Assembly (NCBI GenBank): GCA_947588655.1
Contig: CANPYS010000019.1
Location: 1 to 37,061, forward strand
Direction of reading: 5' to 3'
Source of the DNA: an uncultured Alphaproteobacteria bacterium
Lineage (GTDB): Bacteria; Pseudomonadota; Alphaproteobacteria; RF32; CAG-239
Length of the DNA stretch: 37,061 nt
Both the position numbers and the translations under genes were made by a program. Below are positions 2,653 to 33,553 of this stretch, in pieces. Each line of letters starts with the position of its first letter. Position 1 is the first letter of the stretch. A model generated the notes under the pieces. It searched no databases and was not told the DNA's origin. It worked only from the letters and a program-made list of their open reading frames with translations.

Positions 2653-2686
2653 AAAAAAACGCGGTATAATTTTACCGCGTTTTTTT
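2653..2686. terminator. Bidirectional terminator between infC and the cysteine-rich operon
   Basis: Arms 2653-2666 and 2673-2686 (AAAAAAACGCGGTA and its complement) enclose a 6-nt loop, with A and T runs on both sides. It is placed to end the minus-strand operon at 2701 and to back up the infC terminator. Confidence 0.85.
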
Positions 2687-2700
2687 GAAACAGAAGCCTA

Positions 2701-4380
2701 TTAATTTTGTGGTGGCCATTTTGCAGCGTTAAGAGTTTCATAGGAGTGTTGTACTGGACACCCATCACTATAAATGATTAGATGCGGATAAATTATGCCA
2801 CTATTAGTTAAAGAAAAGTTTCCAGTATTACTATCATCTTGGCTCGTTGCGAAAAATTGTCCAGTTTCACATTCCGCACTTGAGGTTACATCACCACCAA
2901 CGCCTGACTTTTTCGTTTCTAGTATTGTTGGAACATACCAGTGCCCTCCACCAAAGCCAGGATTATAATTTGTAAGGTACCCAAGGGAATTACCTAGCCA
3001 TGAATATATCTCATAATTATAATCATGAGCAAACTTTTTTTCAGAATCTGGGTTAATCTTTAGCATATTTGTTACAACATTGCTACCTGTATTTTTTGTT
3101 ATTATTCTGCAATCCCTAGATAATGACATATTATGTTCCAGACAATATTTATCTTCAGTAACCTTTGCAACATTTGCAAGGCACTTATCTTCACGGTCGT
3201 TGTCCTTCTTGAGTGTAACCGTCGTGGAATTTAATGCAACCACTTTGGCATAACACCCTTCATCACAACGCTCATCATTAAAATAAAATCCAGAATCAAA
3301 GAAGAAATGAGATTTGTAGTGAGATACAAAGTAAACTTTACCAAAAGAATTGCCTTGCTTTGTTGGTGTAAACGTACCGTCCATATTAGCATAAAGCCCT
3401 TGAGACTTGCAGACATCTGTTGTCGCTGTTCCAGAGGAAGGTACTTCGGCGAAACAGTCACAATAATACTCATTAGGATCCTCTATCTGATCACCCGAGT
3501 CATTATAATATGCACAATGCGTACAAAGGCAATCTTCGTCTAGGCTTTTGCTTACACCTTTAGAGGTAACAGAAACAGGTGTATAACAAGCTCCGCTATA
3601 ACAAACATCTTTGCAGACATCTTTTTCAAGATTAGAATCCCAATCACATTCTTCATGACAGTCGTATGTTCCATTAGATTTGTTAAAAACAGAACTATGT
3701 ACAATTACCTCATCACTCAAACAATCTAGATATCCTTCATCATCAGCACAGTTACTATACTCCGAGTCTTCCCCTTCTTGACACACGGGAGAACAAAGAT
3801 CCGTATCGTAAGAGGTCAAAGTATGTCCTTCTGAACATAACTTATAAGTTTTTCCACCCTCTTGACAATAAACAAACTTATCGCATCCCCATATATTATC
3901 ACTATTTTCTTTAAAGCCTTTAGATTTACAATTTTCTGCTGATTTTTCGTCTAAGCACTGATATTTTACAGAACCATCAGAATCGGTGCAAGTTAATTGT
4001 TTTTGATTAGAGCCACAAGGCGTGGTTTGTGTAAAGCCTAAGCTTTGACAACTAACTTTGGGATATTTTACACAAATTTTATAGTTTTCATTATAAGGAC
4101 AGTGTTGATATTCCTCACATCCCTTCACATCTTCAGTTTTATAACCCAACTCATCACATGCTTTTTCCGGCGTTGTATAATCCACGCACTTCATATATTT
4201 TGTATTAAACGGGCATTTCACATAATGTTCACAATTCTCAACTTCATTTAGCGAATACCCTAAATCAGTGCATTTCTGAGCCGCCGTTGATTTATCGTTG
4301 CATTCATCAGAATCACCACATGTTATAGCCATTGCCGGTGTGGCAACAAACATCAAAAATAAAATTAAAAACTTTTTCAT
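2701..4380 (-). CDS. Exported cysteine-rich repeat protein with DUF1566-like C-terminal region
   Basis: A 559-aa protein starting at MKKFLILFLMFVATPAMA, a clear Sec signal peptide ending in AMA; the start ATG (4378-4380) follows GGGAG inside the upstream gene's last codons. The N-terminal part holds at least four tandem cysteine-rich units of about 40 aa with the pattern C-x2-LGY/F...C...CP-[FY]...C. A middle cysteine-rich segment of less regular spacing follows. The last ~230 residues resemble a divergent DUF1566-type module: GKVYFVS, later GGGHWYVPT and FFATSQ where the family usually has WYLP and YWSST. Function is unknown; a periplasmic or surface disulfide-rich protein is inferred. It is homologous to the genes at 4385-5035 and 31943-32995 and lies 4 bp behind the former, so they form one operon. 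Confidence 0.85.
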   Translation of the reverse strand: MKKFLILFLMFVATPAMAITCGDSDECNDKSTAAQKCTDLGYSLNEVENCEHYVKCPFNTKYMKCVDYTTPEKACDELGYKTEDVKGCEEYQHCPYNENYKICVKYPKVSCQSLGFTQTTPCGSNQKQLTCTDSDGSVKYQCLDEKSAENCKSKGFKENSDNIWGCDKFVYCQEGGKTYKLCSEGHTLTSYDTDLCSPVCQEGEDSEYSNCADDEGYLDCLSDEVIVHSSVFNKSNGTYDCHEECDWDSNLEKDVCKDVCYSGACYTPVSVTSKGVSKSLDEDCLCTHCAYYNDSGDQIEDPNEYYCDCFAEVPSSGTATTDVCKSQGLYANMDGTFTPTKQGNSFGKVYFVSHYKSHFFFDSGFYFNDERCDEGCYAKVVALNSTTVTLKKDNDREDKCLANVAKVTEDKYCLEHNMSLSRDCRIITKNTGSNVVTNMLKINPDSEKKFAHDYNYEIYSWLGNSLGYLTNYNPGFGGGHWYVPTILETKKSGVGGDVTSSAECETGQFFATSQDDSNTGNFSLTNSGIIYPHLIIYSDGCPVQHSYETLNAAKWPPQN

Positions 4381-4384
4381 TGAT

Positions 4385-5035
4385 TTACTCCCAAACAACA
4401 TACTTGATATCACCAAAGCGAATAACTGGAGGATTTACCTTTTTCTCCCGAACAGCTCCACATAAAGTATATGTAACGCCATTTTCTTCACAACTTCTGA
4501 TACTTGAACACCATTCACTTTTATCAAAGATTGTAAAGCCAAGCTCGGTGCAAGTTTTTCCTTTGATCTCACCGCAAGCGTATTTTTGTGGTGTTTCTTC
4601 AATTGGGCATTTCATTGAATTAACGCCCTCATCGCAAGATGTTTCCGTAAAGCCTAGCTCTTCGCATGTCCTGACGGGCGCCGTTATATCAACACATAAG
4701 AGTTTTGTTTGATCAAACGGGCATTTAACGGATGTTTCGCCGTCAGCACAACTTGCCGATGTATAACCTAACGCAGTGCAATCACCCTTTTCCGATAAAG
4801 GATTTTTTTCAATACATCTGCCTTTGCTTTCATCAAACGGGCATTTTAAGAACGATTCGCCGTCAGCGCAACTTGTGGCAGTATCGGTATAGCCAAGCTT
4901 AGCGCAATCGCCGGCCGTTTCCCCATATGTGCGCCCTTCAACGCAACTATTGTTTCCGCCATAATCGTTAACGCATGTTTCGGCAAAAGCAGGATTGGCG
5001 ATAAACATCGCCATCAATAAAATTATTAATTTCAT
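4385..5035 (-). CDS. Exported cysteine-rich repeat protein, short form
   Basis: A 216-aa protein with signal peptide MKLIILLMAMFIANPAFA, cleaved probably after AFA. The mature part is almost entirely repeats: about four units of ~40 aa, each C-x2-LG[YF]T...C-x-[DE]G...KCP[FI]...C, so four cysteines per unit and an even number overall. It lacks the DUF1566-like C-terminal region of its downstream partner. The ATG at 5033-5035 is chosen over a TTG one codon earlier because AGGAG (5043-5047) then has a 7-nt spacer. No known family is recognised with confidence. The regular cysteines and export signal suggest a disulfide-stabilised envelope or secreted protein. First gene of a two-gene operon. 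Confidence 0.85.
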   Translation of the reverse strand: MKLIILLMAMFIANPAFAETCVNDYGGNNSCVEGRTYGETAGDCAKLGYTDTATSCADGESFLKCPFDESKGRCIEKNPLSEKGDCTALGYTSASCADGETSVKCPFDQTKLLCVDITAPVRTCEELGFTETSCDEGVNSMKCPIEETPQKYACGEIKGKTCTELGFTIFDKSEWCSSIRSCEENGVTYTLCGAVREKKVNPPVIRFGDIKYVVWE

Positions 5036-5064: not shown

Positions 5065-5093
5065 AATGTACCTTAAAATTATGAAAATGTCAA
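5065..5093 (-). promoter_or_regulatory. Promoter for the cysteine-rich operon
   Basis: Minus-strand TTGACA (5088-5093), 17-bp spacer, TACATT (5065-5070), about 30 nt upstream of the ATG at 5035. Confidence 0.6.
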
Positions 5094-5502: not shown

Positions 5503-5588
5503 TGGTAGGGGTGAGGAGACTTGAACTCCTACTCGCCAAGCGAACAAGATTTTGAGTCTAGCGCGTCTACCAGTTCCGCCACACCCCC
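5503..5588 (-). tRNA. tRNA-Leu (anticodon CAA)
   Basis: Read on the minus strand, the GTGGCGGAACTGGTAGACGC D-arm region is typical of bacterial tRNA-Leu. The anticodon loop is CTCAAAA, giving CAA. There is a long class-II variable arm, then a T-arm with GTTCAAGTC, the acceptor CACCCCT, discriminator A and an encoded CCA (5503-5505). The first acceptor pair would be G-U, and the anticodon stem appears to contain one U-U mismatch. The CCA end abuts palindromic element copy 1. Confidence 0.93.
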
Positions 5589-5669
5589 ATTGAAAGTATG
5601 GGTAGGTTTATAACAAATAATTTCTGCTGTCAACACTTTTTTGAATTTTATATTTTTTTTAATTTTTTG

Positions 5670-5678
5670 TGTTATAAT
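5670..5678 (+). promoter_or_regulatory. Extended -10 promoter for the TPR-methyltransferase gene
   Basis: TGTTATAAT matches the extended -10 consensus TGnTATAAT, 30 nt before the chosen TTG start. No good -35 box is seen at the usual distance. Confidence 0.5.
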
Positions 5679-5708
5679 TTATTTAAATTCAGAATAAAAG
5701 GAGCGGCT

Positions 5709-7235
5709 TTGTTAAGTTTAGAGCAGACAGCGGCCGTTTTGTACGGCGAACAAAAATATCCTCAGGCTTTGGATATTTACCTCTCTCTTTACAAAAAAAG
5801 TCCCAAAACTGAAAAATATTCCATTTTTTGTGGCAACTGTTATGATGCCTTAGGTAAACCGGCGCAAGCTATTCGTTTTTATAAAAAAGCCTCAAAGCTT
5901 AATCCTGCTTCAACGACATCTCTTATGGCTTTAGCAAACCTTTATTATCAGCGGGGCGATTACAAAAATTCAGAAAAATTTTCCTTAAGAGCCTTAAAAG
6001 CCGAACCCAAAAATCAATCGGCGCTCATTAATTTGGGCAACATTGCTTATTGCCTTTCAGACTATGAAAAATCGTACAAATATTATCAAGCCGTGTACAA
6101 CGAAAATAAGGCGAGTTACATTGCGCTGATTAATATGGCAAACGTAAGTTTTGACCTCAAGCATTACGCGCTTGCCTTAGAACACGCGGAGCAAGCGCTT
6201 CATCTTTATCCGTCAAGTGTTGACGCATACATCATTCGCGGCAACGCTTATTTAGAGTTAGGCAAGTTCAAAAAATCAGAAAAAGCGCTGATAAACGCTT
6301 TAGATTTAAACAATCAAAACCCTTGGATTTATAATACCTTAAGCAGGCTTTATCAAAAGCTTGAGCGTTGGGACGAGGCTTTGGCGGCGGGTTGGAAAGC
6401 CGTTGTTTTGGAAAAAAATGCCCAAGACGAGCAACACATAAATTTCGGTTATTTATTATACGAATACACCGCCGAGAAAAAAGGACCTTTGGCGCAAACT
6501 TATGCCGCCAAATGGTTTGAAAAATATTTTGACAACGAGCTTGTAACTTATATGGCAAGCGCAATTTTATCAAACAAGCAACTCAACCGCGCCAACGCCC
6601 ATTACATTGCCAAGCTTTTTGATTCTTTTGCCGCCGATTTTGATTCAACGCTTGCCGAGCTAGATTATCAAGTCCCTGCGCAAATTGCCACGGCGTTAAA
6701 AAAGGTATATCATTTGCCTTTTTATGTTCGCGCGCGTGTTTTAGACTTGGGTTGTGGCACAGGTTTATGCGCTGAAAAAATAAAGCCTGCCTTGGGTTGG
6801 AGCAACATTGAAGGGGTTGATTTATCAGAAAAAATGCTCAAACAAGCCGAGGCAAAAGGGGTATATTCAGCCCTTCATCAAGCCGATATTTTGGAGTATC
6901 TCAAAGACTTAAGCCCAAAATATCATTTGATAACGGCGGCCGATGTCCTCACATATTTTGGCGATTTGAAAGCTTTGTTTGAAAACATCACGCATGCTTT
7001 GGGGCAAAACGGCATTTTCATTTTCAGCATTTCCGAAAATATGACCGACGATTCCAATTACACGCTCACGCCGTCAGGACGCTTTGTGCATCAACCGGCT
7101 TATGTCTTAAATCTGCTCAAAAAGTGCGGTTGCAAGCCAATTCTCTCAGAACGCAAAGTTTTGCGAACCGAGGGCGCGTCGCTTGTTTATGGTTATATCA
7201 TTGCCGCCCAAAAAGAATTTATTATTGCAAAATAA
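5709..7235 (+). CDS. TPR-repeat protein with C-terminal SAM-dependent methyltransferase domain
   Basis: A 508-aa protein with a TPR N-terminus (about residues 1-250; recurring A..LG..Y...A......P pattern) followed by a class I SAM methyltransferase domain. The SAM motif DLGCGTG is at about residues 346-352, followed by GVDLSEKML and the late motif GIFIFSISE. This architecture matches the predicted TPR-containing methyltransferases of COG4976; the substrate is unknown. The start is taken as TTG 5709 because AAAAGGAG (5696-5703) lies 5 nt upstream; an upstream in-frame ATG at 5598 would give an implausible Phe/Asn-rich extension reaching toward the tRNA. Its 3' end overlaps the convergent transketolase gene by 14 bp. 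Confidence 0.85.
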   Translation: MLSLEQTAAVLYGEQKYPQALDIYLSLYKKSPKTEKYSIFCGNCYDALGKPAQAIRFYKKASKLNPASTTSLMALANLYYQRGDYKNSEKFSLRALKAEPKNQSALINLGNIAYCLSDYEKSYKYYQAVYNENKASYIALINMANVSFDLKHYALALEHAEQALHLYPSSVDAYIIRGNAYLELGKFKKSEKALINALDLNNQNPWIYNTLSRLYQKLERWDEALAAGWKAVVLEKNAQDEQHINFGYLLYEYTAEKKGPLAQTYAAKWFEKYFDNELVTYMASAILSNKQLNRANAHYIAKLFDSFAADFDSTLAELDYQVPAQIATALKKVYHLPFYVRARVLDLGCGTGLCAEKIKPALGWSNIEGVDLSEKMLKQAEAKGVYSALHQADILEYLKDLSPKYHLITAADVLTYFGDLKALFENITHALGQNGIFIFSISENMTDDSNYTLTPSGRFVHQPAYVLNLLKKCGCKPILSERKVLRTEGASLVYGYIIAAQKEFIIAK

Positions 7236-31942: not shown

Positions 31943-32995
31943 TTAAAATGCTAATACAGGTCGGACATAAGAATCTTTAAAACCGCCAAAATGATAATGT
32001 AATGTACCATGATATAAATAAACACTTACATAGCCGGTTCTTTCTACATAACCTATGGTGGAAGACCAATGCTGAGCATTTTTTAAAGGTTGGATATCTA
32101 TATTTTTAGTTTTTAATTTTTCTAAAGAATTGTTAATCTGCTGGTAAGAATAAGCCAACCCTCTATAACCAAATCCTGTAACTTTGCTTAAATCATATCC
32201 CCACATCTGCATTAATTCGCCGATAGACGGGAAATACCATTGGCCCGCGCCAACTTTTGGGTTATCCGCAGAAACGCCTAAAGGGTAAAAAGCCGTACAT
32301 GCTTTTGCCGCAATAGGTGTGCAGAGTTTTTGATTGTTAGTATTTTGATTAAGGCATTCTGTTAAATCAGCGGCAAGCATTTTTTGAGTGTTGCCTTTAC
32401 CGTCAAAGACTTCAGGCTCACCATTTTGCAAAGCTTGAGCTAAAGTTTGTGAAGTGTAGGGCGTTAAACCTTGTACAATAGAATTTTGAAAGCCGACCGA
32501 TAGAAATTCTTGCGTATTATGGAAAGGATTTTGAGGATCAAAGTCTGAATTGTCATCAACCGTTAAAGTGCTTAACGCCATAACTTTACCATGAACACCG
32601 CCATTCGTGGTTAAAAACACGATTCCAACAGGAATTTTGTTTTCATGAGTGGAGTCATAATCATCGGCATAACCACACGTCCCGTCTGAGTAATAAACAT
32701 CACCGATTTCACAAAGGTCTTTACAAAGCGTGTATGTGTTATCTGTTGGACATTTTGAAATTTTACCACACCAAGCGGATTTATTGGATTGTGTAAAGCC
32801 TAACGATTCGCAATTATAGCGAACACATTTTTTATATGATTGGTCATAAGGGCAAAGAATATAACCATTTTTATCACATTTTGGATTATCTTCTTTGGAA
32901 TAATTTAACTCCTCACAGGTCGGTTGCTTTTCACAATTCAGCGCCATCGCTTGATTTGAAAACAAAACTATCATCAAAAATAAAATATACTTCAT
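31943..32995 (-). CDS. Exported cysteine-rich repeat protein with DUF1566-like C-terminus (third paralogue)
   Basis: A 350-aa protein with signal peptide MKYILFLMIVLFSNQAMA. Two to three cysteine-rich units follow (C-x2-LNY/LGF...C...LCPY/KCPT...C), related to the proteins at 2701-4380 and 4385-5035. The remaining ~240 residues form a recognisable DUF1566-like module: GIVFLTTNGGVHGKVMAL, GAGQWYFPSIGELMQMW, HWSSTIGY and the terminal YVRPVLAF. Such modules occur in exported proteins of gut bacteria; their role is unknown. ATG 32995 follows AAAGGAT; the longer frame up to 33085 runs into repeat DNA and is rejected. Single-gene unit flanked by repeats. Confidence 0.85.
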   Translation of the reverse strand: MKYILFLMIVLFSNQAMALNCEKQPTCEELNYSKEDNPKCDKNGYILCPYDQSYKKCVRYNCESLGFTQSNKSAWCGKISKCPTDNTYTLCKDLCEIGDVYYSDGTCGYADDYDSTHENKIPVGIVFLTTNGGVHGKVMALSTLTVDDNSDFDPQNPFHNTQEFLSVGFQNSIVQGLTPYTSQTLAQALQNGEPEVFDGKGNTQKMLAADLTECLNQNTNNQKLCTPIAAKACTAFYPLGVSADNPKVGAGQWYFPSIGELMQMWGYDLSKVTGFGYRGLAYSYQQINNSLEKLKTKNIDIQPLKNAQHWSSTIGYVERTGYVSVYLYHGTLHYHFGGFKDSYVRPVLAF

Positions 32996-33553
32996 TATCT
33001 TTATCCTTTCGCCCAAATTCTTCCGAATCGTCATCCTGAAACGACCCCAAATGTCATGCTGAACTTGTTTCAGCATCCCCTCCAAATGTCATGCTGAACT
33101 TGTTTCAGCATCTCTTTTTATAAGATCCCGAAACGAGTTTGGGATGACGTTTGAGGGAGTTTTTCCCTTTCTTAAAAAAAGGTACGTTTAAATGTGCATT
33201 TTTTTGCAAAAATAAGTTGTTGAAAATCCCAATTTTTTCTACTTGACAAGTTGTAAATAATGACGTACCTTTTTTTGAGATACTTCTTATTTGCCCGCTC
33301 ATTGTTGATTTTCCTTGCTTTTTTAGCTTTTTGAAACCCATAAAGTCCTCAGAGTGACGTAAAATAAAAAACGTCATTCTGAGGCAATTTATTGCCGAAG
33401 AATCCAGGAAAAAAGTAGCTAATTTATTCTTCCTGGACTCTTCCTCCCTACGGTCGTCAGAGTGACGGGCGGTGAATATCAGCGCCTTTGCACCCAAACC
33501 GAGGGAACGCGGAGAATGAAAAAACGAATCCATATTATTTTGCACCCAAGCCG
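32996..33553. repeat. Intergenic repeat array upstream of the str operon
   Basis: 33047-33077 and 33082-33112 are direct copies of a 31-nt unit containing the palindrome TGCTGAACTTGTTTCAGCA. 33354-33465 holds the GTCATTCTGAGGC unit (33373-33408, exact inverse of 33743-type copy at 17743-17778). 33489-33520 and 33540-33571 are near-identical direct repeats of TTGCACCCAA followed by CCGAGGGAACGCGGAGAATG. A 179-aa minus-strand reading frame across this block is translated repeat DNA without an SD. No gene is supported. Confidence 0.75.

Follow-up and report, generated by a model that had tools for sequence, protein, structure and literature searches.

We put at roughly 0.6 the probability that the uncultured alphaproteobacterium studied here encodes a lineage-specific repertoire of Sec-exported proteins, in which a four-cysteine base mostly carries a C-terminal tip, the heads are homogenized and the tips bind surface ligands. 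Most likely the proteins are adhesins, displayed on the surface or extracellular, with one disulfide-bonded base and many ligand-binding tips, the location, disulfides and ligands of which we infer. The window (the whole 37,061 nucleotide stretch analyzed) contains a tandem pair of such proteins, w1 and w2, and a third member, w3 (Table 1). The original prediction described the pair but underestimated the size of the family: the same genome encodes at least 50 two-unit proteins, of which the pair forms a side branch. More than 3% of this small alphaproteobacterial genome is thus spent on one exported family that is unnamed in any library.

The w1 and w2 ORFs are genuine and are arranged head to tail. 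The lengths of 217 and 571 amino acids in the ORF list result from TTG starts upstream of the likely ATGs, which are preceded by good ribosome-binding sites. The genes are separated by 4 nt, with GGGAG 8 nt before the w2 ATG. Because a promoter-like site precedes w1 and a T-tailed stem-loop follows w2, the two genes probably form one transcript. The predicted signal peptides are visible by eye as Sec-type leaders of about 18 residues (MKLIILLMAMFIANPAFA followed by ETC in w1, MKKFLILFLMFVATPAMA followed by ITC in w2), and no lipobox was seen by eye in either. A tRNA-Leu (caa) at 5503-5588, directly upstream of the pair, is a possible insertion site. tRNA-linked insertion was rejected as a rule, as few of the family's loci lie close to a tRNA. 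Also adjoining the pair, on the plus strand at 5598-7235, is a gene whose product joins TPR repeats to a methyltransferase domain.

The repeat unit follows the pattern C-x9-14-C-x5-8-C-x8-10-C. An HMM whose training units all came from outside the window scored 57.2 bits on w1 and 54.3 bits on w2, whereas the maxima over 1,000 shuffles were 11.0 and 8.1 bits, and a tandem exported pair of four-cysteine repeats is therefore borne out. The HMM located eight units in the two proteins, where seven or more had been claimed, plus a leading cysteine pair in each. The rest of w2 carries a second, different cysteine spacing pattern. Unit 4 of w1 most resembles unit 2 of the proteins in the expanded family. 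All four cysteines are kept in 155/155 non-redundant full-length units, a count that is biased, as the HMM itself favors cysteine. Disulfide pairing could not be read from cysteine co-loss, since none of the 155 units loses a cysteine.

Table 1. Features of the tandem pair, of w3 and of giant relatives. Positions refer to the window unless a locus is named.
Feature	Position	Strand	Description	Basis
w1	4385..5035	(-)	exported, 216 aa: leader, Cys pair, four 4-Cys units; ATG 5035, stop 4385	
w1 unit 1	4814..4906	(-)	C44-C74; HMM match residues 42-76	HMM
w1 unit 2	4694..4780	(-)	C86-C114; HMM match residues 84-116	HMM
w1 unit 3	4574..4666	(-)	C124-C154; HMM match residues 122-151	HMM
w1 unit 4	4460..4552	(-)	C162-C192; HMM match residues 160-194	HMM
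w2	2701..4380	(-)	exported, 559 aa: four 4-Cys units, further Cys-rich stretch, divergent tail; ATG 4380, stop 2701	
w2 unit 1	4186..4272	(-)	C37-C65; HMM match residues 35-67	HMM
w2 unit 2	4072..4158	(-)	C75-C103; HMM match residues 74-105	HMM
w2 unit 3	3955..4050	(-)	C111-C142; HMM match residues 109-131	HMM
w2 unit 4	3835..3930	(-)	C151-C182; HMM match residues 149-184	HMM
w2 motif NPGFGGGHWYVPTILE	2914..2964	(-)	resembles Lcl_C-like domains of the family	hhalign 61%, 17 columns
Promoter-like site	5065..5093	(-)	TTGACA-17-TACATT; precedes w1	consensus match only
Terminator-like site	2653..2686	(-)	stem-loop, then T-run; after w2	by eye
w3	31943..32995	(-)	two-unit family member, Lcl-like C-domain, 350 aa	genome search
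w3 unit 1	32825..32917	(-)	C27-C57	HMM
w3 unit 2	32723..32812	(-)	C62-C91	HMM
Palindromic repeat ATGCTGAAACAAGTTCAGCAT	33050..33110	(-)	two copies before w3	
Giant relative	L075:187-4179		1331 aa, 126 Cys	
Giant relative	L087:96-5057		1654 aa, 106 Cys	
Giant relative	L082:912-5594		1561 aa, 132 Cys	

A search of the window's own genome (G000; 1.55 Mb in 55 contigs) with w1 gave 86 matches. The family size of at least 50 combines 48 proteins extracted by one pattern with two further loci (L038, L032), and such copy numbers are lower bounds because contig breaks fall inside family members. The 48 extracted proteins occupy 49.6 kb, or 3.2% of the genome. Members have an MKY-type leader, two near-identical units, and then usually one of two unrelated C-terminal domains; the leader features are clear by eye in every full-length member. 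The 45 members of at least 200 amino acids divide into 30 with an Lcl-like C-domain and 15 whose C-domain is beta-helix-like. By C-domain class, the median identity within the genome is 38% and 32% for the C-domains and 62% and 77% for the two-unit modules. Window-type proteins with four or five units recur, and contig C15 carries another tandem pair of them. The unit is also found at the N-terminus of larger relatives of 890-1650 amino acids. In the giant, Cys-rich, exported-type proteins of Table 1, from this genome and from relatives, other repeats lie behind it. A single ancestral locus was not recovered by synteny; the stand-alone two-unit gene lies beside nth/pntB in this genome and apparently beside pyrG in several genomes of genus g14.

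The only other genome of the genus examined, that of a sister species (G001; a draft in about 100 contigs with 93% completeness), yielded 61 matches. It has an orthologue of the w3 C-domain; no full-length match to w2 was found in it. At E 0.001, matches occur in 26 of the 49 genomes sampled from the taxonomic family; within the order, 33 of 153 match at E 1e-6, spread over 9 of 17 genera. A class-wide sample gave 3 matching genomes of 289, all three from the same taxonomic family; thus, we did not find the protein family beyond its own order among the sampled Alphaproteobacteria. Viral contigs held no relatives, and a search of named genome contigs returned one, L061, from an uncultured alphaproteobacterium. 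No literature on DUF1566 or cysteine-rich families in this lineage was found in the sources covered, which include few of the subscription journals. The family offers a concrete starting point for learning how these little-studied bacteria deal with their environment.

Large exported families of this kind have a precedent in the Fibrobacter succinogenes major paralogous domain (PF09603/TIGR02145), a lineage-specific expansion whose domain recalls DUF1566. Neither model appeared in the Pfam or NCBIfam scans of the present family. PF07603 (Lcl_C) is matched at E < 0.01 by 16 of 29 Lcl-like members, with 2 of 21 Lcl_C matches in the genome above the Pfam cut-off of 34.9 bits (35.8 and 35.3) and the rest below it; w3 has no Lcl_C hit. 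The profile of the Lcl-like C-domain matches 8q4e (deposited as HbP1) at 6e-5, which is taken to be the C-terminal domain of Legionella Lcl. The Lcl paper mentions 8Q4E and reports that the DUF1566-containing C-terminal region of Lcl recognizes glycosaminoglycans (PMC11162425). A DUF1566-like part had been predicted for w2 itself. The 17-residue motif speaks for it, but the w2 tail has no Lcl_C (DUF1566) hit in Pfam, and by sequence the tip may be called Lcl-like only weakly. In the second class, 3 of 15 members match the Pectate_lyase_5 'adhesive domain' weakly (E up to 0.1), the match examined scoring below its cut-off, and our beta-helix assignment, made from sequence, is a weak one.

Among the closest known systems is Lcl (PF07603/NF046116): an Lcl_C-like domain forms the C-terminus of about 30 members of the family, and in Lcl as here an exported protein combines a stalk-like part with a C-terminal tip. 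The stalk is made of collagen-like repeats in Lcl and of the four-cysteine module here, the Lcl C-terminal domain is without disulfides (PMC11162425), and one Lcl stands against at least 50 paralogues. The member at L045 scored 12.6 bits against NF046116 (Lcl adhesin), below its cut-off of 500. Myxococcus TraA may be likened to the family by description, as an analogy only: it has cysteine-rich repeats and a cell-surface recognition domain (PMC13184517), but in the reverse order, and it has a MYXO-CTERM, none of which was seen in this large paralogous family.

A different origin of tip variety, diversification of the Lcl-like tips by a diversity-generating retroelement (DGR), was rejected, as the DGR of the sole reverse transcriptase found has a TR/VR pair that matches no family member. 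That element (L060; G000:C3:55968-59573) has phage-like neighbors, with the reverse transcriptase at 1273-2424, the VR at 769-873 and the TR at 1043-1147; all 8 of its VR/TR mismatches fall at template adenines.

Heads and tips have evolved differently. We compared 44 members of the window's genome with 41 of the sister species, taking the head as the leader plus the two-unit module (residues 1-92). Of the 85 heads, 84 have their best match within their own genome; the median identity of the best match is 86% within the genome and 60% across. For C-domains this holds in 32 of 85, and they form 23 reciprocal best pairs across the species. In all 18 orthologous pairs with C-domains at least 60% identical, the C-domain is more similar than the head (median 83.5% vs. 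53.8% amino acid identity). Together, these results argue that the head has been homogenized within each species. As judged from nucleotide identity, the flanks show that several of the cross-species pairs are the same locus: L036/L126 are syntenic, with flanks 92% identical on both sides, and the flank is 97.9% identical over 1.5 kb downstream in L027/L126, 98.5% over 718 nt in L050/L123 and 90% over 720 nt in L024/L118. With paralogues closer than orthologues at syntenic loci, the head sequences show concerted evolution. The clean separation of a homogenized head from conserved tips makes the family a natural experiment in how exported proteins evolve in concert.

Gene conversion is the most likely means of this homogenization. 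In a PHI-like test of the heads of the window's genome, none of 1,000 permutations gave a value as low as that observed. The breakpoints between head and C-domain scatter around the end of unit 2. They span residues 75-137, with many in 88-96, and vary by locus, which suits homologous conversion and not a site-specific recombinase. Divergence at fourfold sites is 0.09-0.22 in the leader, 0.48 in the module and 0.58-0.64 in the C-domain. Alignment columns that distinguish the two species cluster in the leader; as this part is removed by cleavage, DNA-level copying is more likely than selection on a binding surface. The palindromic repeat ATGCTGAAACAAGTTCAGCAT lies upstream of 28 of the 48 family genes, often 75-104 nt before the start codon, with no copies elsewhere in the window or in an 18-kb control stretch. 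We tentatively suggest, though it is doubtful, that a 5' cassette of repeat, ribosome-binding site, leader and two units is actively copied from gene to gene across dozens of dispersed loci and so overwrites the heads of the repertoire in a single species, while the ligand-binding tips are kept. If true, the head would be a species- or strain-specific identity placed on otherwise shared adhesins.

Homogenization would also be expected if the two-unit head were a dockerin-like docking or sorting tag for a shared cell partner, with copying keeping the tags matched. The same head does occur on two unrelated C-domain types, and stand-alone two-unit proteins exist (L020 in this genome, and proteins of about 100-150 amino acids in genus g14). 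We nevertheless regard a docking role as unlikely: the species differences are strongest in the removed leader and can be explained without partner matching, the heads of a single genome continue to vary widely (mean identity 0.69 including the leader), and no partner was found.

The tips themselves are under purifying selection (pooled dN/dS 0.36), and positive selection on them was rejected on this ratio; the pooled ratio of the flanking genes is not relied on, as that comparison set includes several overlapping spurious frames. The purifying selection on the tips also bears on antigenic variation, in which heads would be exchanged to escape phage or immune recognition. Mosaic heads, their complete turnover between sister species and the repeat upstream of so many genes would all suit such exchange, but the C-domains are stable orthologues, and the genes appear intact and individually spaced, unlike an expression site with silent copies. 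This makes antigenic variation a rather improbable account, and we retain the adhesin repertoire as the preferred reading.

The original prediction also held that the unit matches no recognized domain and may define an undescribed family of envelope or secreted proteins rich in cysteine, and both views are supported. The unit has no family match in Pfam, NCBIfam or PHROGs, a search of PDB sequences gave nothing significant (the best being fibronectin, E 0.7), and the HMM did not map onto a known domain. AlphaFold2, from a shallow alignment of eight rows, predicted one short hairpin per unit with middling confidence (pLDDT 73, pTM 0.43). The model of the whole of w3 was poor (pLDDT 48) and was not used. 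Foldseek with the unit model found no match at E up to 0.001 (lowest E 2.3), and the sole VIA-align neighbor with Z of at least 2 was a barley Bowman-Birk inhibitor (Z 2.1). EGF-like, granulin, fibronectin type I and Bowman-Birk modules are similar to the unit, with its predicted hairpins, in size and cysteine number, but none gave a significant profile or fold match (Z at most 2.1). That the units are secreted inhibitors that bind host gut or microbial proteases, the C-domain merely targeting them, would agree with small, repeated, disulfide-type modules and with this one neighbor. It is very improbable, as a Z of 2.1 is at noise level, the Foldseek E is 6.4, and the alignment shows no hypervariable reactive loop. 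Metal sequestration by the invariant cysteines is scarcely credible for a unit without CxxC or CxC, with cysteines spaced 6-15 residues apart and no His-rich pattern.

For the adhesin repertoire, we envisage that the Sec leader exports each protein and that the cysteines would form disulfides in the periplasm. The four-cysteine base may serve as a stalk or cell-surface base, and the C-domains may bind glycans or other surface ligands by analogy with the related Lcl domain. In the window, w1 would be a subunit consisting of the base alone and w2 would bear a divergent tip on a long base, both being translated from a single transcript. The leaders point to localization in the envelope. We did not find an anchor or outer-membrane domain in the family, so a periplasmic location or free secretion would also be compatible with the sequences. 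The genome encodes two DsbA-like proteins and many proteins with dozens of cysteines; neither DsbB nor VKOR was found in it, and the oxidizing route is thus not closed. Elsewhere in the genome, at L099:2769-14000 (G000:C2), is a cluster of secretin, ATPase, GspF-like and pilin-like genes with a response regulator, which by eye is type IVb pilus-like.
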